A stretch of 64,000 nucleotides of DNA from Nitzschia sp. pyKryTriq1 (taxonomy: Eukaryota; Bacillariophyta; Bacillariophyceae; Bacillariales; Bacillariaceae). The position numbers and the translations under genes are program-made. Shown here piece after piece: positions 730 to 64,000 of the stretch; within the stretch, counting starts at the first letter, position 1; every line of letters starts with the position of its first letter. The notes below the pieces were generated by a model that worked only from the letters and a program-made list of their open reading frames with translations, had not been told where the DNA came from and made no database searches. Location of the stretch: positions 1,582,915 to 1,646,914 of the forward strand of contig OY101126.1 in the NCBI GenBank assembly GCA_956465555.1. Direction: 5' to 3'.

Positions 730-3700
730 TCATACAATAACAGTGCACTGATTTCGGTCTGCATAAGATGTGCATGTGGCACTGGCTTGAGCATGACCAT
801 CGTTCCTGTTGTTGGCCTGAGCGCAGCAGGAACAACATTCGTCTGACGGGAAAAAAACACCACTCGCGGTACCAGTGGGCCTTGTAGCCGTCTCACCTTG
901 TGCCAGACCGAACGGGACGCCAGTTGGTGACGTGATGATTGCAGGTGATGAGGGGCTAGCTTTTGTACAAAATCCAGTCGGGGTTGGGGTTGGATATTGT
1001 CTGGGACATGTATTAGTCGGTGCCGGAGTGGGAATTGGAGTTGGAATTCCCGTCGGTAATCGAGTGGGAACTGGAGTTGGTGGTAGAGTTGGACCTGGCG
1101 TCGGAGCCGCAGTGGGAAATGGAGTCGGAAATCCCGTCGTTAGTCGAGTGGGAACTGGAGTCGGTGGTAGATTGGGACCTGGCGTCGGAGCCGAAGTGGG
1201 AAATGGAGTCGGAAATCCCGTCGGTAGTCGAGTGGGGACCGGAGTCGGTGGTAGATTGGGACCTGGCGTCGGAGCGGCAGTCGGGAATTGAGTTGGAGCG
1301 TTGGTCGGTTTCTTGCTCGGTTCGCTGCTCGGCTCTGAGCTCGGTTCCCGGCTGGGACTGCTGCTGGGTGTACTGCTGGGCTTGGTGCTCGGTTCAACGC
1401 TGGGCTCTGAGCTCGGTTCCCGGCTGGGACTACTGCTGGGCTTGCTGCTGGGCTTGCTGCTGGGGGAACCGCTGGGGGAACCGCTCGGCGTACTGCTGGG
1501 CTTGCTGCTCGGTTCACGGCTGGGCTCCGAGCTCGGTTCGGCACTGGGTGTACTGCTGGGCTTGCTGCTCGGCTTGCTGCTGGGAGTGGTGCTGGGCTTC
1601 GTACTCGGAGTGCTACTGGGCTTGCTGCTTGGTTCACTGCTCGGTTCGGCACTGGGTGTACTGCTGGGCTTGGTGCTCGGTTCACCGCTGGGCTCTGAGC
1701 GCGGTTCCCGGCTGGGACTGCTGCTGGGTTTGCTGCTGGGAGAACCGCTCGGCGTACTGCTGGGCTTGCTGCTCGGTTCACCGCTGGGCTCCGAGCTCGG
1801 TTCGGCACTGGGTGTACTGCTGGGCTTGCTGCTTGGCTCGCTGCTGGGAGTGGTGCTGGGCTTCATACTCGGAGTGCTACTGGGCTTGCTGCTTGGTTCA
1901 CTGCTCGGTTATGCACTGGGTGTACTGCTGGGCTTGGTGCTCGGTTCACCGCTGGGCTCTGAGCTCGGTTCCCGGCTGGGACTGCTGCTGGGCTTGCTGC
2001 TGGGAGAACCGCTCGGCGTACTGCTGGGCTTGCTGCTCGGTTCACCGCTGGGCTCTGAGCTCGGTTCGGCACTGGGTGTACTGCTCGGCTTGCTGCTCGG
2101 TTCACGGCTGGGCTCCGAGCTCGGTTCGGCACTGGGTGTACTGCTGGGCTTGCTGCTGGGGGATCCGCTCGGCGTACTGCTGGGCTTGGTGCTTGGTTCA
2201 CCGCTGGGCTCTGAGCTCGGTTCGGCACTGGGTGTACTGCTGGGCTTGCTGCTCGGCTCGCTGCTGGGAGTGGTGCTGGGCTTCGTACTCGGAGTGCTAC
2301 TGGGCTTTCTGCTTGGTTCACTGCTCGGTTATGCACTGGGTGTACTGCTGGGCTTGGTGCTCGGTTCACGGCTGGGCTCCGAGCTCGGTTCGGCACTGGG
2401 TGTACTGCTGGGCTTGCTGCTGGGGGATCCGCTCGGCGTACTGCTGGGCTTGGTGCTTGGTTCACCGCTGGGCTCTGAGCTCGGTTCGGCACTGGGTGTA
2501 CTGCTGGGCTTGCTGCTCGGCTCGCTGCTGAGAGTGGTGCTGGGCTTCGTACTCGGAGTGCTACTGGGCTTTCGGCTTGGTTCGCTGCTCGGTTCTGCAC
2601 TGGGTGTACTGCTGGGCTTGGTGCTCGGTTCAACGCTGGGCTCTGAGCTCGGTTCCCGGCTGGGACTGCTGCTGGGTTTGCTGCTGGGAGAACCGCTCGG
2701 CGTACTGCTGGGCTTGCTGCTCGGTTCACCGCTGGGCTCTGAGCTCGGTTCGGCACTGGGTGTACTGCTGGGCTCGCTGCTCGGCTCGCTGCTGGGAGTG
2801 GTGCTGGGCTTCGTACTCGGAGTGCTACTGGGCTTGCTGCTTGGTTCACTGCTCGGTTCGGCACTGGGTGTACTGCTGGGCTTGCTGCTCGGTTCACCGC
2901 TGGGCTCTGAGCTCGGTTCGGCACTTGGTGTACTGCTGGGCTTGCTGCTGGGCTTGCTGCTGGGGGATCCGCTCGGCGTACTGCTGGGCTGGCTGCTCGG
3001 TTCACCGCTGGGCGTTGAGCTCGGTTCAGAACTGGGTGTACTGCTGGGCTCGCTGCTCGGCTGGCTGCTGGGAGTGGTGCTGGGCTTCGTACTCGGAGTG
3101 CTAATGGGCTTGCTGCTTGGTTCACTGCTCGGTTCGGCACTGGGTGTACTGCTGGGCTTGGTGCTCGGTTCTCCCCTGGGCTCTGAGCTCGGTTCAGAAC
3201 TGGGAGTACTGCTGGGCTCGCTGCTCGGCTCGCTGCTGGGAGTGGTGCTGGGCTTCGTAGTCGGAGTGCTACTGGGCTGGCTGCTTGGTTCACTGCTCGG
3301 TTCGGCACTGGGTGTACTGCTGGGCTTGTTGCTCGGTTCTTTGCTCAACTCAACTATTGATTCCAGAGACTCGTATCCGTTACCGAGCTCACCATTTTGG
3401 CTTTGAGCTAGAATGGCGTCATCTAGTGCATCGGTGAATTCTGCGATCATCTCTGCTTGAGTCAACACAGGTCTCAATTTACGCATATATTGATTTGAAG
3501 GATTTCCTCGCAGGTACCTCCGTCCCTTGTTTTTCTCTTCTATCGTGAATAGTGGTTCTGTTTCGGGACATCCTACACAGTTTACCCACGCCTTGATCTC
3601 GGTAATCAACGTGCCCTGGCTTGTGGCGTTTGCTTGGTCCTTCGCCTCGAACGTTTGCTGGACGATTGTCGAGTTTTGCATTTCCCGATAATATGCATCA

Positions 3701-4195
3701 ACGCACTCGGTGCTATTAACTGTACTTCCACCTGTCACGTCATTATATGCTTTGACGATGAGATCTTCGACCAAATGTTGCTGTTTGTCTGTGAATGTAC
3801 CGTAGAAGCCTACAAACACCAATGTAAGTGATCCTTCACTCTGCTGAGGGTCTTTCGGCAAATCTAGGCCACACGGACTGCTCGGCTTGCTGGTTGGCTT
3901 GCTGGTTGGCTTGCTGGTTGGCTTGCTGGTTGGCTTGCTGGTTCTCTTGCTGGTTGGCTTGCTGGTTCTCTTGCTGGTTGGCTTGCTGGTGGGTGTACTG
4001 CTGGGCTTGGTCTTTTTTTCTCCTTGTCTTTGTTTTCGCCTCGGTCTTGTTTTTGCCCTCTTCTTTTGCACCTGCTTCTTCAGTTGGCTGTGCGGCGAGA
4101 TTCTTTGGCTTTGCGTCGACTCCTGTCATCGGAAACAACAAGAGCCGCCAAAGACAGTCCACGACAATCAAAGTCGTAGGAGTAAATCTCTTCAT
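730..4195 (-). pseudogene. Secreted Ser/Pro/Thr-repeat protein, disrupted
   Basis: The first Met (4195) begins an N-terminal signal peptide (MKRFTPTTLIVVDCLWRLLL, then a short run ending in VDA), followed by a Lys-rich stretch. The frame then shifts at an A7 tract (plus 4013-4019). One base fewer would join it to PTSK repeats, a globular region of about 150 residues (plus roughly 3370-3880, with several Cys and possible N-glycosylation sites) and a very long array of PSSx/PSxE four-residue units. The C-terminus is PTP-rich ([11 protein letters not shown] type) and ends in a short Cys-rich tail. Two in-frame TAA codons interrupt the array (plus 2329-2331 and 1909-1911), while the frame stays open on both sides. 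Such Pro/Ser/Thr arrays are typical of extracellular, probably glycosylated wall or adhesion proteins of diatoms. The frameshift may be a homopolymer sequencing error. The two stops look real because they sit in the same repeat context. Confidence 0.7.
1301..3345 (-). repeat. Coding 12-bp repeat array (PSSx units)
   Basis: The array consists of 12-nt units encoding PSSx or PSxE tetrapeptides, arranged in higher-order blocks. One block of roughly 260 bp is nearly duplicated, for example starting at 2101 and at 2365 (264-bp offset). The same array is open in several frames on both strands, so the long antisense Leu/Gly frames are artefacts. Confidence 0.85.
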
Positions 4196-13703: not shown

Positions 13704-14551
13704 CGAGTCTATTTGTGCAAGCTACTAGTCCAGTAGAGTACAAGAACTGTAGTGAAGAAGAAAGTCTAAAGTTACAGTCATTTGATTCTTTATTCTATAC
13801 TGTAGTAGTACAATGTGAGTAAAGTAGGTTGTATTCGTAGAGGCCTAGTCGGACTGCAATGACAAACAATACCAAGTCTATTTGTGCAAGCTACTAGTCC
13901 AGTAGAGTACAAGAACTGTAGTGAAGAAGAAAGTCTAAAGTTACAGTCATTTGATTCTTCACTCTATACTGTAGTAGTACAATGTGAGTAAAGTAGGTTG
14001 TATTCGTAGAGGCCTAGTCGGACTGCAATGACAAACAATACCAAGTCTATTTGTGCAAGCTACTAGTCCAGTAGAGTACAAGAACTGTAGTGAAGAAGAA
14101 AGTCTAAAGTTACAGTCATTTGATTCTTCACTCTATACTGTAGTAGTACAATGTGAGTAAAGTAGGTTGTATTCGTAGAGGCCTAGTCGGACTGCAATGA
14201 CAAACAATACCAAGTCTATTTGTGCAAGCTACTAGTCCAGTAGAGTACAAGAACTGTAGTGAAGAAGAAAGTCTAAAGTTACAGTCATTTGATTCTTCAC
14301 TCTATACTGTAGTAGTACAATGTGAGTAAAGTAGGTTGTATTCGTAGAGGCCTAGTCGGACTGCAATGACAAACAATACCAAGTCTATTTGTGCAAGCTA
14401 CTAGTCCAGTAGAGTACAAGAACTGTAGTGAAGAAGAAAGTCTAAAGTTACAGTCATTTGATTCTTCACTCTATACTGTAGTAGTACAATGTGAGTAAAG
14501 TAGGTTGTATTCGTAGAGGCCAAGTCGGACTGCAATGACAAACAATACCAA
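13704..14551. repeat. Five copies of a 169-bp tandem repeat
   Basis: Units begin with GTCTATTTGTGCAAGCTACT at 13707, 13876, 14045, 14214 and 14383, exactly 169 bp apart. Copies differ at only a few bases (for example TTTATTC versus TTCACTC in the first copy). No coding frame is conserved through the unit. This is a young minisatellite or small satellite cluster. Confidence 0.93.
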
Positions 14552-55075: not shown

Positions 55076-56889
55076 TCAGACTCCATTATATTCTTCATCG
55101 TCATGGACCCAAGTGGTCATGGGGGCTGGTTCCGAGAGAAAGGCCAAGGTTCGTGTAGGTGTAGAAAGGAGTACATCAGGGTTCAGTGGCTGTTCTGCTA
55201 CCTCCTTCACGGCATAGAACACCACTTCCCCTTCCGTCCGATCGGAGTGAATGCTCCAATCCTCCTCATCCTCATCCCAATTCGAAAACGAATCCTCACC
55301 ATCACTCTGGCTGGTGTTTACAGCCACCATCATGGAAGTAGGCAAATCGTCTTCGTCTTGTTGAGTACAAGTCGCACCAGGTGTTATTGGCGGCTCGTCG
55401 GTCTCCTGGATGCATTCGACATTCGTGTCCTCCTGCTGCGGCTCAACATTTGCCGGAGAATCATCGGTACTGCTACTGCCGGTATTGATCTGATGCGGCC
55501 AGGTCACTTCCATGTCAATTGGAGGTACAGCGCAGTGTTCCAAAGTGAAGACGGCTGGCTTGTTGAGATTGGAATTTCGTCCGTCCATCTCGTAAGAGCC
55601 TGTTTCTGCATTCTGTTTTCGACGCCGTCTCTTCATCAAAGCGAAATACATCATCACAAAAGATAACGCCAAGATCACCGAAAACGCAATTCCCAACTCG
55701 GATGCCAACGAAAGGCTACCCGAAGAAGAGTCGAGGGAGGATTGTGGGTCCTCTTGAGACAAATTATTAGATTGCATGGGTACAGTCGACTCTGGTTCCC
55801 GTTCTCCCAGGAAAACAACTCGTTCCACCGACGATCCACTCGGGGTCGCAATCACTAGTTTGTCTTGAATCATGATGCTTCGAATTTCCTTCAAAATTTG
55901 ACTCGTAATGGCTAGTTCCTCGGCATGGGAAAGAACATCACTACCGACCAGCATGTTGGTCTTTCGATCCACATAGACCATCACTTGTCCTCGAATCTTG
56001 CTACACTCGGCCACGTCTTGAATGCCCTTTTCCACGGGCGATTGGCAAATCTCTTTTTGGGGAAGAAACGAACGATGTAGCAAGGTGGCCGTGAGATTCT
56101 AATCATCATCGTTTCTACGAATCAATCCAGCAGTTTCGATACCACGTTGCTCTTCTTGTTCTTACCTCGACTAGCCTCCACATCGGCCGGCTCAGAAGCG
56201 ATCGCCAACACTTTAAATGATGAAGGCGGATCCCCTTCTTCCTCTACTTCTTCCATCCGCCTCGTTGTTCTTCTTGTTTCCGGGGAAGAGCAGTTGGGCA
56301 AGTCTAGTGCCTGGGCCAGATGGTGCAATAGAAAACCTTGCAAAAAATCCAAGGGCGGATCCTCCACTTGCGTATAATATACCTCATAATCGAACGGAAT
56401 CACCATCCGATCGAGTATCGATGAACTTGTAGTGATCGCTGGCATGGTGGCCCAGTTATTGACGAGGTCCTCTTCCTCCCAGCCGCACAACCCGAATCGT
56501 GTTGGAAAGGGACACAGGATCTTGGAATCATTGCTTTCTTCAAAGGAACAATTGATCGTCCACAGTAGCGAGTTTTCGTCAAAATCTATATCCATATCGC
56601 CAAGTCGTCGTGGGCGTCGTCGAGTTGTCGACTCATTCTCCTCCATGGCGGTACTGGAAACCATACTGCTGAGCGAAGGCCTCAAGAAACCAGGAGCTGG
56701 AGGGGTAGAAAATGAAGAGTCGTCGGCGGTAGTTCGACTCATAGCAAGAGCGCTACTATTCAATCGAATCCTGCTGCTTCTCAAAGCAGCACTTTTCAAT
56801 TGCTCATCGGCTGCCATGAAACGTGAGTCCAGGTGTCCTTCCACTGAATGATGATGGATAGGAGGTTTCATTCTATTGGAAGACAACAT
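55076..56889 (-). CDS. Single-pass membrane protein, paralogue A
   Basis: Exon 1 begins at the ATG at 56889 and exon 2 ends at 55076. It is the tandem paralogue of the gene at 57559-59593; both share PFDYEVYYTQVEDPPLDFLQGF, a Cys after DLPN, the splice position, QVMVYV/EVKVYV, ITSQILKEIRSIM and a TM helix (SELGIAFSVILALSFVMMYF) followed by KRRRRK. The ectodomain-like part has no catalytic motif. The tail is acidic and ends with TPTRTLAFLSEP, also conserved (TPTRKLNYLSEP). The conserved donor (GTAAGA, exon 1 ending at 56166) is phase 1, whereas the only in-frame acceptor (exon 2 starting at 56098) is phase 0. Either another donor is used or the copy carries a one-base defect. Function unknown. 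Confidence 0.65.
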
Positions 56890-57558: not shown

Positions 57559-59593
57559 CTACTTCGATTGGAATTCTTCGTCCATGCTGGCGTCAATCGG
57601 CACCATAACGACATTTTCAGGAATTCTGCATTCGTCTTCTATGGAATCATCTTCCTCTTCGTTGGATGCTTCTTTTTCATGTAGTAGTAGACGCTTATCC
57701 ATCTCCGACGTACGAAGAGAGCAAGCGGCAGCAAAGGACGTGTCCACAATACCCGTATCCTTGGATGATTCTTCCTCGTCATGGGAAAGAACATTCAGAA
57801 AGTTATTAAGATCGTCGTCGTCGTTGGAATTGTCCTCTTCTTCCTCTTCGTCGTCACCAAACGAAGTAATGTGTCCGGGCTCGGACAAATAGTTCAACTT
57901 TCGAGTTGGAGTAGTGGGTGGATCATGATCATGATGATCCCAAGGATGGTTTACATGATCGCAATCTTCCTGATCATGAGGAATAAACAAGCAGCGCCCT
58001 TCGTGACTGTCATGCATGGTAGAAATGTCGTTGCTATCCTGGGATGCCTTGATTTCCAAAATAGTGGGGATGCTGCGGCTAGTAGTCTTTGGGCAACCAT
58101 CCATGTCCAGACGAGTACCGCTATTCTCATTCTTTGGATGTTTCGTTGCGTTTGAATGAACCACTGTCATGACGTGCTCATCGACTTCCTTGTAGCTGTG
58201 GCTATGATCATAGAGGCCGTCTTCGTGCCTAGCCGTACTACTATCCGAAGTCGCTTCAAAGGTAGTGTCAAAGGTAATGTCCAAGGTCGTATCCAGCAGC
58301 TCGCCACTGTCATTTTTCTTCCCGCCTGAAAATTTCTTTTCTTCATGAGGAAATGGTATCGGTGTTGGATAATCATCACCGTCGTCGTCTCCTCCTATGC
58401 CTTCAGAGAACGCATCATCTTGATTGTCGACATCGCATCCATCTTGTACTTTCACCACCGTAAAAGGACCTCTTTTCCGCCGCTGGCTTCGAAACAGACA
58501 AAGAATCCCAAAGAGTACCAATAGAAGGAAGAAAATGATACTCATAAAGGCAATAGTGACACTCGAAATTCCTGGAACTGGCTGCTGCGGAGCGAGGACT
58601 TGATTCAAAGTAGTCGTGGGAGAGTGGTTCATGATATTATCCTCTGGTGGGTCCACCATCACAACCTCGCGTTGTCCCATGAAAATGACTCGTCTGATAC
58701 TGCCCGTAGGAGTGGCTATGATCATCTTATCATCGGACATGATGCTCCGAATTCCTTTCAACACTTGGCTCGTAATGGAGAGCAGCTCGCCTTCTACTGA
58801 TGTTGACGATAACAATGTTTCCTCCTTGACGTATACTTTCACTTCTCCCGAAACTCTTCGACATGATGATGATTCTTTGATCGAGCTTTCCACTGGAGCC
58901 TCGCAGACGGCTAGTGTAGAATATGTGCATAGAAGGAAGGGGAGTGAGACCGCGACGTGGGGCGTGAAATGAAATCCTTGTCTTCTTGTAGTAGTACATG
59001 GCACATCCATACATTCGAGATACCTTACCTTCACTGTCAGCAACGTCAGAAAAATCTGACGAAACGGCCAAAATCAGACTATCATCAGCACCAGTGCTAC
59101 TAGTTCTAGCACCATTAGCATCGCCAACAATTTCTTCTCTTCGTCGTCCTCGAAGTAGCAAAGAGCAGTCGGGCAAGTTCCATACTTGCGCGATATAATA
59201 GAGCAAGAACCCTTGAAGAAAGTCCACTGGCGGTTCTTGCATTTCTGTGTAGTATATTTCGTAGTCGAAAGGAATGAGAATCTCGCGGAGACTAGCGCTA
59301 CTGAAGCTGTCGCCGTCGCTTTTGGTTTCGGAAAGCGCTGGCGAGGATTCGTCAAAATATTCTTTGGCCAAATCACATGAACCATAACGCTTGGAAAAAG
59401 GACACAGTTCCTGCTGGACGCCATCGGTAGGGGTAGTGAAAGTATCGTAAGAACAATCCACATTGATCTTTAGGAATCGATCGCTTTCTCCCCTCGTACG
59501 TTCATTATTTTCGGCCACTTCGGTAGCAGTCATCATAGAAGGAGATTCTTTTCGCCGTAACATCCTCCGTTTAGTAGTATCATCGTTGTTCAT
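57559..59593 (-). CDS. Single-pass membrane protein, paralogue B
   Basis: Exon 1 is 59593-59029 and exon 2 is 58976-57559; a 52-bp intron (GTAAGG...ACAAG, phase 1) closes the frame at 660 residues. The shared core is ILIPFDYEIYYTEMQ, PPVDFLQGFLLYYIAQVWNL, then after the intron a hydrophobic stretch (VAVSLPFLLCTYSTLAVC), VSGEVKVYVKEE, ITSQVLKGIRSIM and MIIATPTGSIRRVIFMGQRE. The TM helix is SVTIAFMSIIFFLLLVLFGI followed by a basic stop (RSQRRKRG). The acidic cytoplasmic tail is about 290 residues, far longer than in paralogue A. The two alpha/beta units before the TM could form one small extracellular fold repeated twice. The family is unnamed to me; function unknown. Confidence 0.75.
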
Positions 59594-59815
59594 CGTTGGC
59601 TACAAGTACCGGAACGAACGAACGGCCTCAAATACCAGAGCTATCAGAAGACGCTTGGTCGTCTAAGCTTGTGGGATGTTATGAATGTGGTTAGGACGAG
59701 ACCGCAGCAGTGGTGTTGGAGGGAATTTATTGTTGTTGTTGTTGTTGTTGTTGTTGTGACGGAAAGACGCATATGGGCCGGCCGGTGTGCCCTAAGGAAA
59801 CCGCTTGACAGGCAA

Positions 59816-59926
59816 TGTCGGAAATCGTGCTGGACAGCTGGCCAGACGTAATGAATCGAATGTGTCGACAGCTCGTGATCGAGTTCCACGTCTCAGTTTG
59901 GATACTCGGAACGACATCGATCTGCT
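59816..59926. repeat. 111-bp direct repeat, copy 1
   Basis: The unit begins TGTCGGAAATCGTGCTGGAC and ends CATCGATCTGCT. It recurs at 59992-60102, 176 bp downstream, with a single mismatch seen (CTCGGAACG versus CTCCGAACG). Confidence 0.92.
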
Positions 59927-59991
59927 GAGTCTCCAAGACCACCAATCTAAAAGCTCAAGAGAAAGGCGAGCGACTCTTTTTGGACATCAGC

Positions 59992-60102
59992 TGTCGGAAA
60001 TCGTGCTGGACAGCTGGCCAGACGTAATGAATCGAATGTGTCGACAGCTCGTGATCGAGTTCCACGTCTCAGTTTGGATACTCCGAACGACATCGATCTG
60101 CT
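59992..60102. repeat. 111-bp direct repeat, copy 2
   Basis: This is the second copy of the unit at 59816-59926. The array of TTGGGG begins 60 bp to its right, so it may be subtelomere-like or insertion-target sequence. Confidence 0.92.
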
Positions 60103-60162
60103 ATTCGATGGTTTCAGTGGTGTCAACAATTCACCCTTTCGTCCGTGAAGAAGAGAAACCCG

Positions 60163-60367
60163 TTGGGGTTGGGGTTGGGGTTGGGGTTGGGGCTGGGGTT
60201 TGGGGTTGGGGTTGGGGTTGGGGTTGGGGTTGGGGTTGGGGTTGGGGTTGGGGTTGGGGTTGGGGTTGGGGTTGGGGTTGGGGTTGGGGTTGGGGTTGGG
60301 GTTGGGGTTGGGGTTGGGGTTGGGGTTGGGGTTGGGGTTGGGGTTGGGGTTGGGGTTGGGGTTGGGG
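60163..60367. repeat. (TTGGGG)n telomere-like array at element 3' end
   Basis: About 34 units of TTGGGG on the plus strand (CCCCAA on the element's sense strand), almost perfect except for GGGGCTGGGGTTTGGGG near 60184-60200. TTGGGG is the ciliate-type telomere repeat; diatom telomeres reported so far are TTAGGG. The array sits exactly where the element's 3' UTR ends. Confidence 0.96.
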
Positions 60368-60420
60368 TATGGTTAGTGGTCGAAGAGTGAGAGTAGTTAT
60401 CCCTAGGGTATACGGTAGTA
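60359..60420. repeat. Terminal direct repeat, internal copy
   Basis: It contains GTATGGTTAGTGGTCGAAGA and TATCCCTAGGGTATACGGTA. It is identical, base for base, to 63939-64000. It represents the 3' end of the element next to its TTGGGG array. Confidence 0.95.
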
Positions 60421-60534
60421 TTGGGTTACATTTGATAAAAACAATTTTATGTGAGGTTACAAGTTGTTTCGCGTTAGCTTCATCAGTTCATCAAAAGTGT
60501 GTGTGGGGCGGCGGAATGGATGGTATTGAGGCGG

Positions 60535-62830
60535 TCAGTCAGTGGTAGGGTGGCTGTCCTGGTTGGTCCGGGGCTGTCCGACATGGCGTTGTTCGCTAGG
60601 TGGTCTGTCCGTCGTCCGTCGTTCGGTCGTCGTCATCCGTCTGTCCGTCGATATGGTGGTCTGACTGTTCAGGGGAGGGGCGGTCGCGTTTCCGGGGATA
60701 TTCGTGGCGATTCCGGGGATATTAGGGGGGTGTATGTCTTGTATTCCAATGCGATTGTCGATGGGCTTGTCTCGGGTAAAGGAAAGGGTACGGCGGGGGC
60801 AAAGTAGTGCTTTGAGGTTGGGGAGGGCATGGAATGCAATTACAAGGCGATGTGGTGCAATTGGCCGGGAAGTGGGCTTGTTGCGGATTTCGTCGAGGCG
60901 AGGCAAGTTTGGTGGGCTTGCTACGGTGCTCGTGAAGGCATCGCGGAGGGCGCGTCGATCGGTATTAGATTCGAAGACGGTATGCAAAAATAGCTGCCGA
61001 AGGGGGCTATCGGATTGCCGGTGGGTAGTGGCGTTGCTAGGTGTCTCGAGAAGGGGAGCGGCATGAGAAAAGGCGAGGCGGAGTTGGGCGGTCGAGTGGC
61101 CGCGTTGGTAGAGGCGGTACCACAAGAGTCGAAGGAATTGGAGGCGGTCACTTTTTTCAGTGCAGAGGCGATGGAGGCGATAGAAAAATCCGTTGACCAT
61201 ACTGGAGAGTAGGCCAGGAGGGTGAATCGACGTCGGTGGTAAGTAGAGATAGAGATTCAGGGATTTTTCGTAGAGGGTGGTACGGATTTTGTCATCTCGG
61301 ATGGAGATGCGTAGGTCGAGGAAGATGGCGGAAGCGGATCTCGGGGAGAAGTCCCAGGTGAGATCGTGGTAGGCGTTGATTCGGTTTTGGAATTGTTGCC
61401 AGTTGGCGTCGTCGTCGGCCGTGCTGCTATTGCCGGCGTCCCAGATACCGAAACCGTCGTCGATGAAACGAGAGTAGTAGAGTAGTTGGGGGGTGCGCGG
61501 TATCACATTTCTTTCGTGGATATAGAAGTAGAGGGTAGCGTAGGCGGGGGCGGGTGGGACTCCCATAGCTGTCCCTGTGAGTTGCAGGAAGTATTTATCG
61601 TCGAATCGGAAGATTGAGAATTTCATAATCGTCCGGAGGCATTCGATCAAAGCGTCGACGTCTAGCCCAATGGTGTTGGGCCAGCGGTGGCGTAGAAAGC
61701 CGCTGATCACTCGGAGTGCTTTGGTCGTGTTGATGTTGGTATACATCGACCTAGCGTCCATGGTGAATAGTCGAAGGGCGCGGTTGCTTGTCGTTTGGTC
61801 CCTGATGGCTGTGACGACGGAGTGGGAGCTCGTCACGATGTAATTCGGGCTGGGGAGGGATTTTAGGACAAGTTGGAGCTGTTGGTCGACCCATTGCCCT
61901 AGATGGTATAGGTTGGAGCCGGGGCATGATGTGATGGGGCGGGACGACCACGGCGATTTGTGGATTTTCGCCGTTACGTAGAAAAAAGAGAATGCCTTTT
62001 TGGGGTCCGTTCCGTTGGTTTGGAACGGTTGAAGGATGTATTTTCCTTCGTCCGTTGGGCTAAGTGACATAGATCCATCCCAGTGGACCTTTTGCTCGGT
62101 GAAGTATTTTTTTACGATGTCGCTTGTGATGGATTTGATGTTCCGTGCGAAGCGGGCGGCGGTAGCATGATCGAGTTGGCGGTAGGTGGTGCCGTCGTTT
62201 AGATGCGCGTAGGCCTTCTGAAGGTATTGTTGTCGAGTAGTGACGACGGGGCCCAGGTTTTTGTCTGAGGGCCAAGCGATGTAGTCAGGGTGATTCCGTA
62301 AGAATCTCAAGCCAGCTTGCTGATGTGGTAGCAGGTTTGGTTGGAGGGGGCGGACTCGGCATAGGTCGTCGATTTTTTTGATGAATTTGTTAGTTCTGTC
62401 GATGACGCTGGGGTGTATTTTGTCGTTTCGGGGAATCCAGTTCGACTTAATTCGGAGAGAGGTAGTCGGTGCTGTTTCAGGCGTGTCCTTTTCAGAGAAG
62501 AAAGCATGCCGGTAGAGGTCGCGGCGTAGTCGTGTGGTGTCGACGGCGTCGGGGCCTTGCGAATGACGCGGGCTCGGTATGAAATTAAGGCCGAGTCCGA
62601 GGAGGCTACGAACGGAAGGTGGGATTCGTTTGCCAGTAAGGTTATGGAATGCCGTGTGACGGGCTTGTTGTTGGATGAGTAGGAGTGGCGTTTGGCGTAG
62701 GAGTATACAGAGGTTGTGAGACGGGGTAAGAGCGGGATTGGCGGTGAAACCATAGGAGTGTTTTATTTTACGTAAAACATCTTTTATGATTTCGCGCTTC
62801 CTTTGTTCCGCCGATCTTTTTTCTTTTGTT
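60535..62830 (-). CDS. Penelope-like reverse transcriptase (no GIY-YIG seen)
   Basis: The frame has no stop from its TGA/TAA end at 60535 up past 62760 and into ORF1; the 62830 limit is approximate and no ATG was assigned. Upstream conserved PLE sequence is NLTGKRIPPSVRSLLGLGLN and WIPRNDKIHPSVIDR. RT motifs in order: WPSDKNLGPVV, YVTAKIHKSPWSSRPITSCP, FTMDARSMYTNINTTKAL, LQLTGTAMGVPPAPAYATLY, LLYYSRFIDDGFGIW (catalytic DD, about 61453-61475), AIFLDLRISI and TLYEKSLNLYLYLPPTSIHP. After the thumb region the protein ends in a Thr/Arg/Pro-rich tail with no GIY-YIG nuclease. RT, IN and YR of other element classes are absent. This assigns it to Penelope-like elements, probably the endonuclease-deficient branch. 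No internal stop or frameshift was seen, so it may be active. Confidence 0.92.
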
Positions 62831-63929
62831 GTCGTCTCTGACCGCGATTTTTCGATTTGTTTGAGTCGGCGTTTCGCGTGTCGTTGTTTGCAGTGTCGGC
62901 TGTATCGTCTTGGGGTTGGGGTTGGGGTTGGGGTTGGGGTTGGGGTTGGGGTTGGGGTTGGGGTTGGGGTTGGGGTTGGGGTTGGGGTTGGGGTTGGGGT
63001 TGGGGTTGGGGTTGGGGTTGGGGTTGGGGTTGGGGTTGGGGTTGGGGTTGGGGTTGGGGTTGGGGTTGGGGTTGGGGTTGGGGTTGGGGTTGGGGTTGGG
63101 GTTGGGGTTGGGGTTGGGGTTGGGGTTGGGGTTGGGGTTGGGGTTGGGGTTGGGTCATCATGGCGTTGATTGCTGTTAACTTGTCATTGGTGGACTGCGT
63201 CTCTTCGTAGCGATAAATCGAATGGGAAATAAGTTGTAGATCCTTCTTAATATCGGCGGCAGTAGCGTGTTGGTCGTCGCTGTCGCTTGCGTTGAGGCAT
63301 TCGGTACCGAATTTGTCGTTCACTATTTTTTTAGCGGCGGTGGTGTCGGTACCGCATTGGCGGCATAACTTCTCGTCCAGGATTCCAAGCGCGATGGTTG
63401 TTAACATCGCCTTGGATGGTGATGTACTGGGGCCCGAGTGCCAGAAGAAGTGGGCACTCGAGTACTTTTCGGTGGCGACTAAGATGTCGGTGAGGAGTTT
63501 ATGTTGCGCATCTTTCAATTCGAGCTGTTGAGTGCCGCGAACGGCGGTGGCGATTGTTTGTTGGCAATCGTTGATAGCTGTTTCCACGGATTGAAGGTAT
63601 TCCTTGAACTTCTTCTCCTCTTGGACGTCCTTCGACGCGCCAAGTTTGAACTTAAAGCGCGCTGGGCGTGGAATGAAATCGGGATGCCCTTCAGGTTTGT
63701 CGATTAATTTTGTGAATTTATCAATGCGCTGAAGGTTGGTGAGAATCTTCTTACCGAGAGTAAGAAGGGTTTCGTTAAGTATCGGAGGGAGCGACGCGGC
63801 TGCGACGGAGAGTAGTTGAACTGCTTCGTTGCTGGGTGAGCGAATGGTCGCTTTCGACGGCGCTGCAAATGTATCGTCGTCGAGTGCGGTTGCTGCTCGC
63901 TTGGGAGGTCGGGCGGTCACGCTACTCAT
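62784..63929 (-). CDS. PLE ORF1 with embedded Pro-Gln repeat
   Basis: The frame encodes 381 residues from the ATG at 63929. Residues 1-255 form a mainly helical region (LPPILNETLLTLGKKILTNL, FKEYLQSVETAINDCQQTI, KLCRQCGTDTTAAKKIV) without a domain I recognise. Then about 41 Pro-Gln dipeptides are encoded directly by (CCCCAA)n, followed by an Asp/Asn stretch and a very basic tail (RGQRRQQKKKDRRNKG) suited to nucleic-acid binding. The TAA stop lies within the upstream extension of the RT frame, which is shifted by -1. It could be a nucleocapsid-like protein. Two-ORF structures are known for some telomeric PLEs. Confidence 0.75.
   Translation of the reverse strand: MSSVTARPPKRAATALDDDTFAAPSKATIRSPSNEAVQLLSVAAASLPPILNETLLTLGKKILTNLQRIDKFTKLIDKPEGHPDFIPRPARFKFKLGASKDVQEEKKFKEYLQSVETAINDCQQTIATAVRGTQQLELKDAQHKLLTDILVATEKYSSAHFFWHSGPSTSPSKAMLTTIALGILDEKLCRQCGTDTTAAKKIVNDKFGTECLNASDSDDQHATAADIKKDLQLISHSIYRYEETQSTNDKLTAINAMMTQPQPQPQPQPQPQPQPQPQPQPQPQPQPQPQPQPQPQPQPQPQPQPQPQPQPQPQPQPQPQPQPQPQPQPQPQPQPQPQPQDDTADTANNDTRNADSNKSKNRGQRRQQKKKDRRNKGSAKS
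62910..63154. repeat. (TTGGGG)n array inside ORF1
   Basis: About 41 perfect units on the plus strand, read by ORF1 as CCC-CAA (Pro-Gln). Because the unit is 6 bp, length changes keep the frame. The sequence is the same hexamer as the 3' tract at 60163-60367. Confidence 0.97.
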
Positions 63930-63938
63930 CTTCGTTGA

Positions 63939-64000
63939 GGGTTGGGGTATGGTTAGTGGTCGAAGAGTGAGAGTAGTTATCCCTAGGGTATACGGTAGTA
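63939..64000. repeat. Terminal direct repeat, edge copy
   Basis: Identical to 60359-60420 to the last base of the window, so the true length is longer. It begins with a single GGTTGGGG remnant, meaning the upstream copy's CCCCAA tail is reduced to about one unit at this junction. Confidence 0.95.

Follow-up and report, generated by a model that had tools for sequence, protein, structure and literature searches.

Organization of the right end of contig C12

The window, that is, the whole 64,000-nt stretch of DNA analysed, ends at the final base of contig C12. Its right-hand part holds a probable Penelope-like element (PLE) with two ORFs on the minus strand, joined to telomere repeats. The features are as follows:

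60162..60368, plus strand: inner tract of telomere repeats, (TTGGGG)n, whose centromere side has variant units; the element sense strand reads CCCCAA
60368..63938, minus strand: element unit, with its 3′ end at 60368 and its 5′ end at about 63938
60431..60495, minus strand: candidate hammerhead-like fold in the 3′-UTR
60535..62742, minus strand: ORF2, reverse transcriptase (RT) with Penelope-like motifs; the frame is open further upstream
62784..63929, minus strand: ORF1, 381 aa as it stands in the window, overlapping the open ORF2 frame
62910..63154, unstranded: (TTGGGG)40 within ORF1, read as (QP)n; probably an assembly or haplotype chimera
63939..63947, unstranded: GGGTTGGGG between the two C12 copies, 1.5 telomere units
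63948..64000, minus strand: 3′ end of the second copy, head to tail with the first, or just the terminal repeat of that copy; contig C12 stops here

The repeat tract at 60162–60368 is 207 bp long (34 units, 98% matches), far beyond chance, and bears out the claim of an earlier note on this DNA that the sense 3′ end of the element runs into (CCCCAA)n. It is the former chromosome end that received the element. At the opposite side, positions 63948–64000 repeat the element's own 3′ end and, therefore, a second copy, or at least a terminal repeat, follows head to tail. This junction (63938–63948) is a single case, in which 53 bp of the second copy are present before the contig ends; the spacing from the element unit to this next copy is 3,580 bp.

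Coding capacity of the element

ORF2, read from its first table-11 start codon (60535–62310, minus strand), is uninterrupted, and its frame is open over 882 codons. The N-terminal third of the frame has no AUG; the first one follows it, 35 codons ahead of a match to the Pfam family RVT_1. This match is weak (E = 1.1e-4; 22.4 bits, under the curated cut-off of 29.6); no other Pfam or NCBIfam family matched ORF2, and a PDB sequence search gave no matches at E values up to 1. Motifs A, B and C, together with an N-terminal DKN-type motif, have an appearance that we take to be Penelope-like. Profile searches found no GIY-YIG domain in ORF1 or ORF2, in agreement with the earlier description of an RT without a GIY-YIG region, and the six GIY-YIG matches in the genome all lie outside the element. 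The idea that the element might itself be a telomerase gene (TERT) was discarded, the only telomerase RNA-binding domain (PF12009) in the genome being that of the host TERT.

ORF1 had no credible match in Pfam or NCBIfam; a single low E-value, to PF05887, falls on the QP repeat, far below the cut-off of that family, and was dismissed. The two ORFs overlap, with ORF2 in the -1 frame. Production of an ORF1-RT fusion through a -1 frameshift at A AAA AAC is slightly favoured. The site lies in the C8 copy and is missing from the C12 copy present in the window, where the (TTGGGG)40 tract removed it.

At the place of this tract the C8 copy has 239 bp of unique sequence, and the exchange leaves the overall length as it was (263 bp between shared anchors in C12 vs 263 bp in C8); the edge at which the C12 ORF1 sequence meets the tract reads GTATCGTC/TTGGGG. 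Given this equality of length, the tract probably reflects a chimera of assembly or of haplotypes. A functional contribution of the QP tract to ORF1 was set aside in view of the exact length match to the unique C8 sequence. The tract could instead be real, if telomerase had capped a 5′-truncated copy and the cap had then served to prime a later RNA within ORF1, or if telomere sequence were coded as (QP)40. A 4-nt telomere microhomology (TTGG) at the left border and a reading frame that continues uninterrupted across (QP)40 agree with this, but equal lengths and near-adjacent break points are hard to expect of independent events, and the tract has eliminated the A AAA AAC site together with the part of ORF1 originally there; a real tract is thus improbable. 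The earlier note had described a complete RT. This holds for the uninterrupted RT ORF, but the stretch as a whole does not represent a single intact element, given that the segment at 62910–63154 is probably chimeric.

A candidate hammerhead-like fold in the 3′-UTR

The 3′-UTR contains a hammerhead-like arrangement with a CTGATGA core at 60486, GAAA at 60470, a 9-bp stem I and a predicted cleavage site after position 60440. Stem III is present, and stem II, which is short, lies out of register. A descriptor, set after the motif had been noticed, matched in the element and not once in 2 Mb of Markov sequence; the folding energy was no better than that of shuffled sequences (z = -0.23). Searching Rfam with 59900–64000 at E values up to 5 gave no matches, and with 60370–60530 at E values up to 10 it returned FTX_2 and GlsR4, both implausible and dropped. 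According to the available part of PMC6155905, Penelope hammerheads are usually minimal, without helix III. Hammerhead processing of the element RNA is tentatively proposed, as the weakest of the steps considered here.

Telomeres of the host

The two diatoms best known have TTAGGG telomeres on record. Inspection of the contig ends of the host genome showed CCCCAA/TTGGGG repeats at 20 of them, and PF12009 had a single match in the genome, at C1:2737838–2738224, which corresponds to the host TERT. The host telomere is therefore TTGGGG. The earlier note had left two options, TTGGGG host ends or a G-rich repeat belonging to the element itself, and these data decide for the former. The genome also gave eight matches to silicon transporters, as befits a diatom. 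A literature search, conducted mostly among papers available without subscription and on partial texts, met no report of plain TTGGGG telomeres in diatoms: the available part of PMC8329260 gives a 12-mer, TTAGGGTTGGGG, not plain TTGGGG, and diatoms are absent from that of PMC9498494. A TTGGGG telomere is now documented in a diatom.

Two further repeat sites were rejected as insertions. The second TTGGGG patch near the right end of C11 is separated from the first by 1 kb of subtelomeric repeat, and in a BLAST search against all 40 contig-end stretches it showed no match to the element tail. The 24-mer found internally at C2:3349524 is an isolated four-unit run whose match to the element is confined to the tract.

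Copies of the element lie at chromosome ends

The earlier note had proposed tabulating the sequence at all 3′ junctions. The 40.65-Mb genome was searched with a 23-mer spanning the junction, allowing up to two mismatches, with the reversed pattern as a control. All six occurrences lie at chromosome ends, in the same orientation (3′ end inward), and run into CCCCAA; the control gave none. They comprise three long copies (C8, C12 and C14), the head-to-tail second copy in C12, and traces within the telomeres of C5 and C16. Protein and DNA searches placed all three long copies at the right ends of their contigs. Telomere repeats flank four of the six occurrences on both sides: those of C8, C14, C5 and C16 are truncated at the 5′ end and then followed by telomere repeats. 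The outer telomeres of C8 and C14 (376 and 426 bp) begin at different 5′ points, and the remnants in C5 and C16 are only 24 and 26–27 nt long. Only the C12 copy, itself probably chimeric, has a complete 5′ end. The inner tracts contain 67 exact TTGGGG units in C8, 33 (5+28) in C12 and 59 (26+33) in C14, and the sequences immediately inside them are unlike one another. Within the element, each pair among C8, C12 and C14 agrees without a difference across 2,214 bp, and C12 and C8 do so across 2,546 bp.

Could the long copies be assembly artefacts, with reads from one end misjoined to several contigs? The C12 ORF1 tract, with its exactly zero length change, is indeed what a colinear switch from one molecule to another would leave. 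A separate error would nonetheless be needed for each of the unlike inner flanks, for the C5 and C16 traces and for the different capped 5′ ends, which makes this explanation highly improbable.

Two diverged internal relics of related RTs were found (C1:1309726 and C14:368096), implying that relatives of the element were once internal, or that chromosome ends became internal by rearrangement. Scans for related loci yielded 10 pattern matches in viral contigs, none of them confirmed, and 23 in genome contigs; the one apparent relative among the latter owed its match to QWVDQQLQ, a word that occurs by chance in a bacterial gene, and was dropped.

Proposed mechanism

The chromosome-end location, the fixed orientation, the uniform 3′ junction, the inner and outer tracts and the variable 5′ ends together make up the published architecture of endonuclease-deficient PLEs. 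The earlier interpretation as an endonuclease-less, telomere-attached PLE is supported, in that no GIY-YIG domain was found in the element and its copies do not lie mostly at internal sites lacking CCCCAA. The locus is best explained, with a probability of roughly 0.87, as an endonuclease-less Penelope-like retroelement that primes on the 3′ G-strand overhang of a (TTGGGG)n telomere. Points that count against it are the sub-threshold RVT_1 match, the poor support for the hammerhead-like fold, the probable chimerism of the one copy with a complete 5′ end, and the two internal relics. Overhang priming and a CCCCAA-bearing RNA are inferred. The element RNA would carry C-strand telomere sequence at its 3′ end, where ACCATA would be followed by at least CCCCAACCC; this tail would anneal to the G-overhang, and the element RT would copy the RNA onto the chromosome end. 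Copying from the annealed 3′ tail would thus leave the 3′ end inward and the 5′ end toward the terminus. Incomplete synthesis or erosion could then cause variable 5′ losses, after which host telomerase would cap the shortened end with new TTGGGG repeats, or another copy would join head to tail.

Alternatively, telomere-tract recombination (break-induced replication), the route taken by yeast Y′ elements, might have carried a single ancestral end-attached copy to other ends, without new retrotransposition. Every inner border is a telomere repeat, a natural crossover zone, and the copies show zero differences. Four stretches, of 739 bp (94%), 658 bp (95%), 229 bp (100%) and 64 bp (100%), are common to the subtelomeres of C8 and C14, so these ends have exchanged DNA. 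The C12 flank, however, has no similarity at E = 1e-5 to that of C8 or C14, each of the five chromosome ends has a different 5′ end of the element, the inner tracts are unequal in length and in variant units, and the 1.5-unit head-to-tail junction fits end-to-end addition. These points are not decisive, because erosion after recombination yields the same picture; on balance, spread by recombination is considered rather unlikely, and telomere-primed addition is preferred.

The element may even be mobile now, with the C12 end existing both in a telomere-capped, 5′-truncated state and in a full-length state followed by a second copy, and with element and telomerase maintaining the ends; this is a tentative and somewhat doubtful suggestion. 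If correct, the chromosome ends of the culture are in flux, and element addition helps to maintain those of a unicellular alga.

Comparison with known systems

The element is probably a further endonuclease-deficient PLE, and its architecture was already known. What the assembled ends add is a view of the whole life history, in a unicellular host that has a telomerase gene: the landing tract, the uniform 3′ junction, 5′ losses from full length down to 24 nt, and re-capping. The identical copies may offer a live system for testing telomere-primed reverse transcription, a proposed link between Penelope elements and telomerase.

The HeT-A, TART and TAHRE elements of Drosophila lie head to tail with the 3′ end inward. 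Like the diatom element they are attached to chromosome ends, but they are non-LTR elements in a host without telomerase (available part of PMC5537684), whereas the diatom host keeps TERT and simple repeats. The brown alga Ectocarpus, also a stramenopile with Penelope-like elements, carries 4,782 copies of PLE/Chlamys according to the accessible text of PMC12477816. The diatom, in contrast, has three long copies, a fourth that is cut off, and two short traces. Chlamys is placed in the permuted-domain clade and has an endonuclease. Coprina is a name among the endonuclease-deficient PLEs of fungi, protists and plants. These elements are portrayed in the available part of PMC3846280 (citing Gladyshev and Arkhipova 2007) as encoding an RT only and as telomere-associated; compared by description, they resemble the diatom element in both respects.

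The accessible portions of PMC6431247 and PMC3846280 describe the Athena/Terminon elements of bdelloid rotifers as having two ORFs without an endonuclease domain, a 3′ end on reverse-complement telomeric repeats, a 3′-terminal hammerhead motif, truncated 5′ ends followed by telomeric repeats, and head-to-tail arrays. As far as these descriptions go, the diatom element shares with them the two ORFs, the absence of an endonuclease, the telomeric 3′ junction, the capped 5′ truncation and the head-to-tail arrangement. It differs in its repeat, TTGGGG vs (ACACCC)n and (TCACCC)n in rotifers, in its compact 3.6-kb unit, in an RT reached via a likely -1 frameshift, and in the position of its candidate hammerhead, which would lie ∼70 nt upstream of the repeats whereas those of rotifers are immediately beside them.

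Host telomeres

The genome assembly comprises 40.65 Mb in 20 contigs. One of these, C12, is 1,646,914 bases long, and the window covers its bases 1,582,915-1,646,914; the last base of the window is thus the end of C12, and the finding therefore sits on a physical contig end. The host is a diatom, and eight matches to PF03842 (silicon-transporter) were detected in its genome. Two contigs are small: that of 123.5 kb has recognisable plastid genes among its ORFs, and that of 49.9 kb looks like a mitochondrial genome, judged on its size. A strong reverse transcriptase (RT) match in the presumed mitochondrial contig (C19:45711-46541; 1.4e-30) is probably a group II intron protein.

For the survey of telomere repeats, the outermost 6-10 kb was read from each end of every contig, which gave 40 stretches; two of them, the start of C11 and the finish of C20, had N at the extremity. 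CCCCAA arrays opened 12 left ends (C3, 4, 5, 7, 8, 9, 10 and 12-16) and TTGGGG arrays closed eight right ends (C2, 8, 10, 11, 13, 14, 15 and 17). The end stretches held 1,014 of the 1,073 forward and 863 of the 875 reverse CCCCAAx4 words counted genome-wide. Of the 71 words outside them, those located belong to short runs within contigs, one at C2:3349524 and one at C4:3330919-3330968. The C4 run is interstitial TTGGGG, and the right end of that contig is ~46 kb away. A TERT gene lies at C1:2736752-2738224. Because of these end arrays and this gene, the host is seen to have TTGGGG telomeres and to carry a telomerase gene as well; of the two options in the earlier note, TTGGGG host ends or a repeat borne by the element, the contig ends bear out the first. 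Excerpts of PMC8329260 give TTAGGG for P. tricornutum and T. pseudonana and a degenerate 12-mer, TTAGGGTTGGGG, for Nitzschia inconspicua; an excerpt of PMC9266582 also gives TTAGGG for P. tricornutum.

The right telomere of C14 (end stretch L047), of TTGGGG type, has one TTAGGG unit in its final 12 bp, perhaps of ancestral type or perhaps caused by an error in the reads. In the subtelomeres of C11 right (L044) and C4 left (L012), degenerate TTAAGTTAAC/CTTAACCC-type repeats merge gradually into telomere, and at C11 right TTGGGG occurs a second time as a short patch, 1.5 kb in from the terminus.

Copies of the element

A search with the RT protein yielded three full-length matches with 100% identity, all close to right contig ends.

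Full-length RT copies (protein search), with the inner tract of TTGGGG repeats on the centromere side of the element's 3' end
C8:2313129-2314901; contig of 2,316,609; inner tract of 67 units
C12:1643452-1645224; contig of 1,646,914; inner tract of 5+28 units, variants between
C14:1329722-1331494; contig of 1,332,194; inner tract of 26+33 units, TTGTGG variants between

The chance of a random copy falling within 4 kb of any of the 34 nuclear contig ends is 0.0034, and that of three doing so 3.8e-8. A 532-bp 3' query found the same three copies plus a fourth match (52 bp) at the extreme end of C12; a 788-bp 5' query matched C12 whole and C8 partly. The bodies of the C8, C12 and C14 copies showed no differences across 2,214 bp, nor did those of C12 and C8 across 2,546 bp and another 488 bp. 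Since the bodies are identical, mismatches and gaps in the long alignments must fall in the inner tracts or at their far border. This identity suggests that the copies are recent enough for present activity.

The RT query also yielded two diverged internal relics of related RTs, at C1:1309726-1310103 (L032:1501-1891) and C14:368096-368329 (L033:1534-1731), with amino acid identities over short stretches of 66-69% and 38-41%, respectively. The C1 relic has ~70% DNA identity to the element across 0.4 kb and no CCCCAA pair within 3.4 kb; at the C14 locus, a 19-bp CCCCAA match overlaps the relic.

Junctions and flanks

On the sense strand, the last bases of every copy are ...CGACCACTAACCATA, and (CCCCAA)n follows at once. 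When CGACCACTAACCATACCCCAACC was searched for, allowing two mismatches at most, six places came up, all exact, at chromosome ends and with the 3' side inward, and a reversed-pattern control found none; the 3' end running into CCCCAA, described in the earlier note, was thus seen at all six junctions. Two of them are remnants in left telomeres: the last 24 nt of the element in C5 (11 telomere units inside, 104 outside) and the last 26-27 nt in C16 (39 inside, 20 outside). At the 5' side, the C8 copy breaks after GACGCGC and the C14 copy after GGTATG, followed by TTGGGG to the contig end for 376 and 426 bp, respectively. Beyond the 5' end of the C12 copy come GGGTTGGGG and then 53 bp of another copy's 3' end, up to the contig end. 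These 53 bp may belong to a complete second copy or to a terminal repeat (pLTR) alone; pLTRs are usual in Penelope elements according to excerpts of PMC11167929 and PMC3846280.

Reverse transcription of the element would be primed by the telomeric overhang. The main rival explanation, on which the flanks bear and with which the sequence is compatible, is that copies may have spread by telomere recombination. The sequence immediately inside the inner tract is unlike among C8, C12 and C14, and the ~6 kb C12 flank shared nothing with the C8 and C14 flanks at E 1e-5. The latter two share four stretches (739, 658, 229 and 64 bp), that of 229 bp at 100% identity (L041:4757-4985, L047:5744-5972) and the two longer ones at 94-95%.

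Immediately inside the inner tract of C12, a ~115-bp stretch occurs twice (window 59800-60150); it adjoins a gene-bearing region, whereas several other contig ends have subtelomeric repeats. Other observations in the window were:
55076-56889 and 57559-59593, minus strand: adjoining gene regions alike in layout (membrane-protein-like, acidic), perhaps tandem paralogues beside the telomere
730-4071: long protein of PSS/PSSEPSS repeats, with nested tandem repeats in its DNA
13706-14551: 169-bp tandem unit, five times, nearly identical (99% matches)

A telomere tract within ORF1 of C12

Identical anchors stand 263 bp apart in C12 and C8 alike, enclosing (TTGGGG)40 in C12 and unique ORF1 sequence in C8. 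Exact conservation of length is not what independent insertions should produce, which makes them unlikely. The tract likely stems from a colinear switch between a molecule end-capped at this point and one with the full element; the two could come from homologous chromosomes or from different cells. C12 would then preserve one further 5' end state. The (QP)n-bearing ORF1 seen in the window is not to be read as the real protein.

Coding regions and predicted frameshift

The sole family match of ORF2 was RVT_1, at 22.4 bits, under its cut-off of 29.6; the motifs TMDARSMYTNI, GTAMGVPPAPAYA and FIDDG we take to be Penelope-like in look. All six GIY-YIG matches in the genome lie outside the element, as the earlier note's endonuclease-less reading implied. 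ORF1 gave no convincing match in the protein-family search; PF05887 (1.6e-7) was rejected, with 31.8 bits against a cut-off of 100 and the match falling on the QP repeat.

ORF2 is in frame -1 relative to ORF1; the overlap between the frames is 235 nt long in the C8 copy. The first AUG of the C8 ORF2 is codon 317 of 827, 35 codons ahead of the RVT_1 match (352-522); a protein started there would therefore keep the RT core and lose the N-terminal third. From ATGATGACC to its stop, the C8 ORF1 frame contains one slippery heptamer, A AAA AAC, within the overlap and 183 nt ahead of the stop. A AAA AAC is an efficient heptamer for slippage. A 6-bp hairpin lies 9 nt downstream (z -1.3 for 60 nt, -0.6 for 80 nt and -1.8 for a trimmed 44 nt). 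About 0.3 general-form heptamers are expected by chance in 78 codons. In C12, a single different heptamer of this form, GGGCCCC, stands in the ORF1 frame at codon 166, where ORF1 and ORF2 do not overlap. On sequence grounds, we lean slightly towards A AAA AAC as a predicted -1 frameshift site.

A tentative hammerhead

In the 3' UTR, a 9-bp stem I accompanies the motif CTGATGA-AGCTAACGC-GAAA-CAA...TTG-TT. A descriptor, tuned only once the motif had been seen, matched once in the element, gave six weaker matches in 609,206 bases of other DNA (both strands counted; all one repeat sequence) and had none in 2,000,000 Markov bases. The strict stem II count was 0, an Rfam search of the region returned nothing credible, and the folding energy was ordinary (z -0.23). 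Excerpts of PMC6155905 describe Penelope hammerheads as mostly lacking helix III. The fold is a possible, rather doubtful, hammerhead candidate.

Comparison with known elements

The element belongs to a known kind, here in a diatom with TTGGGG telomeres, and the earlier note was right in its observation and, in substance, in its interpretation. Endonuclease-deficient Penelope elements are described in excerpts of PMC3846280 as using exposed chromosome ends as primers, their truncated 5' ends gaining telomeric repeats. Excerpts of PMC6431247 describe such elements as arranged head to tail in arrays and truncated at the 5' end; they have two ORFs, and after the hammerhead at the 3' side come telomere repeats in reverse complement. 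Those features in these accounts that concern position are seen in the diatom element as well.
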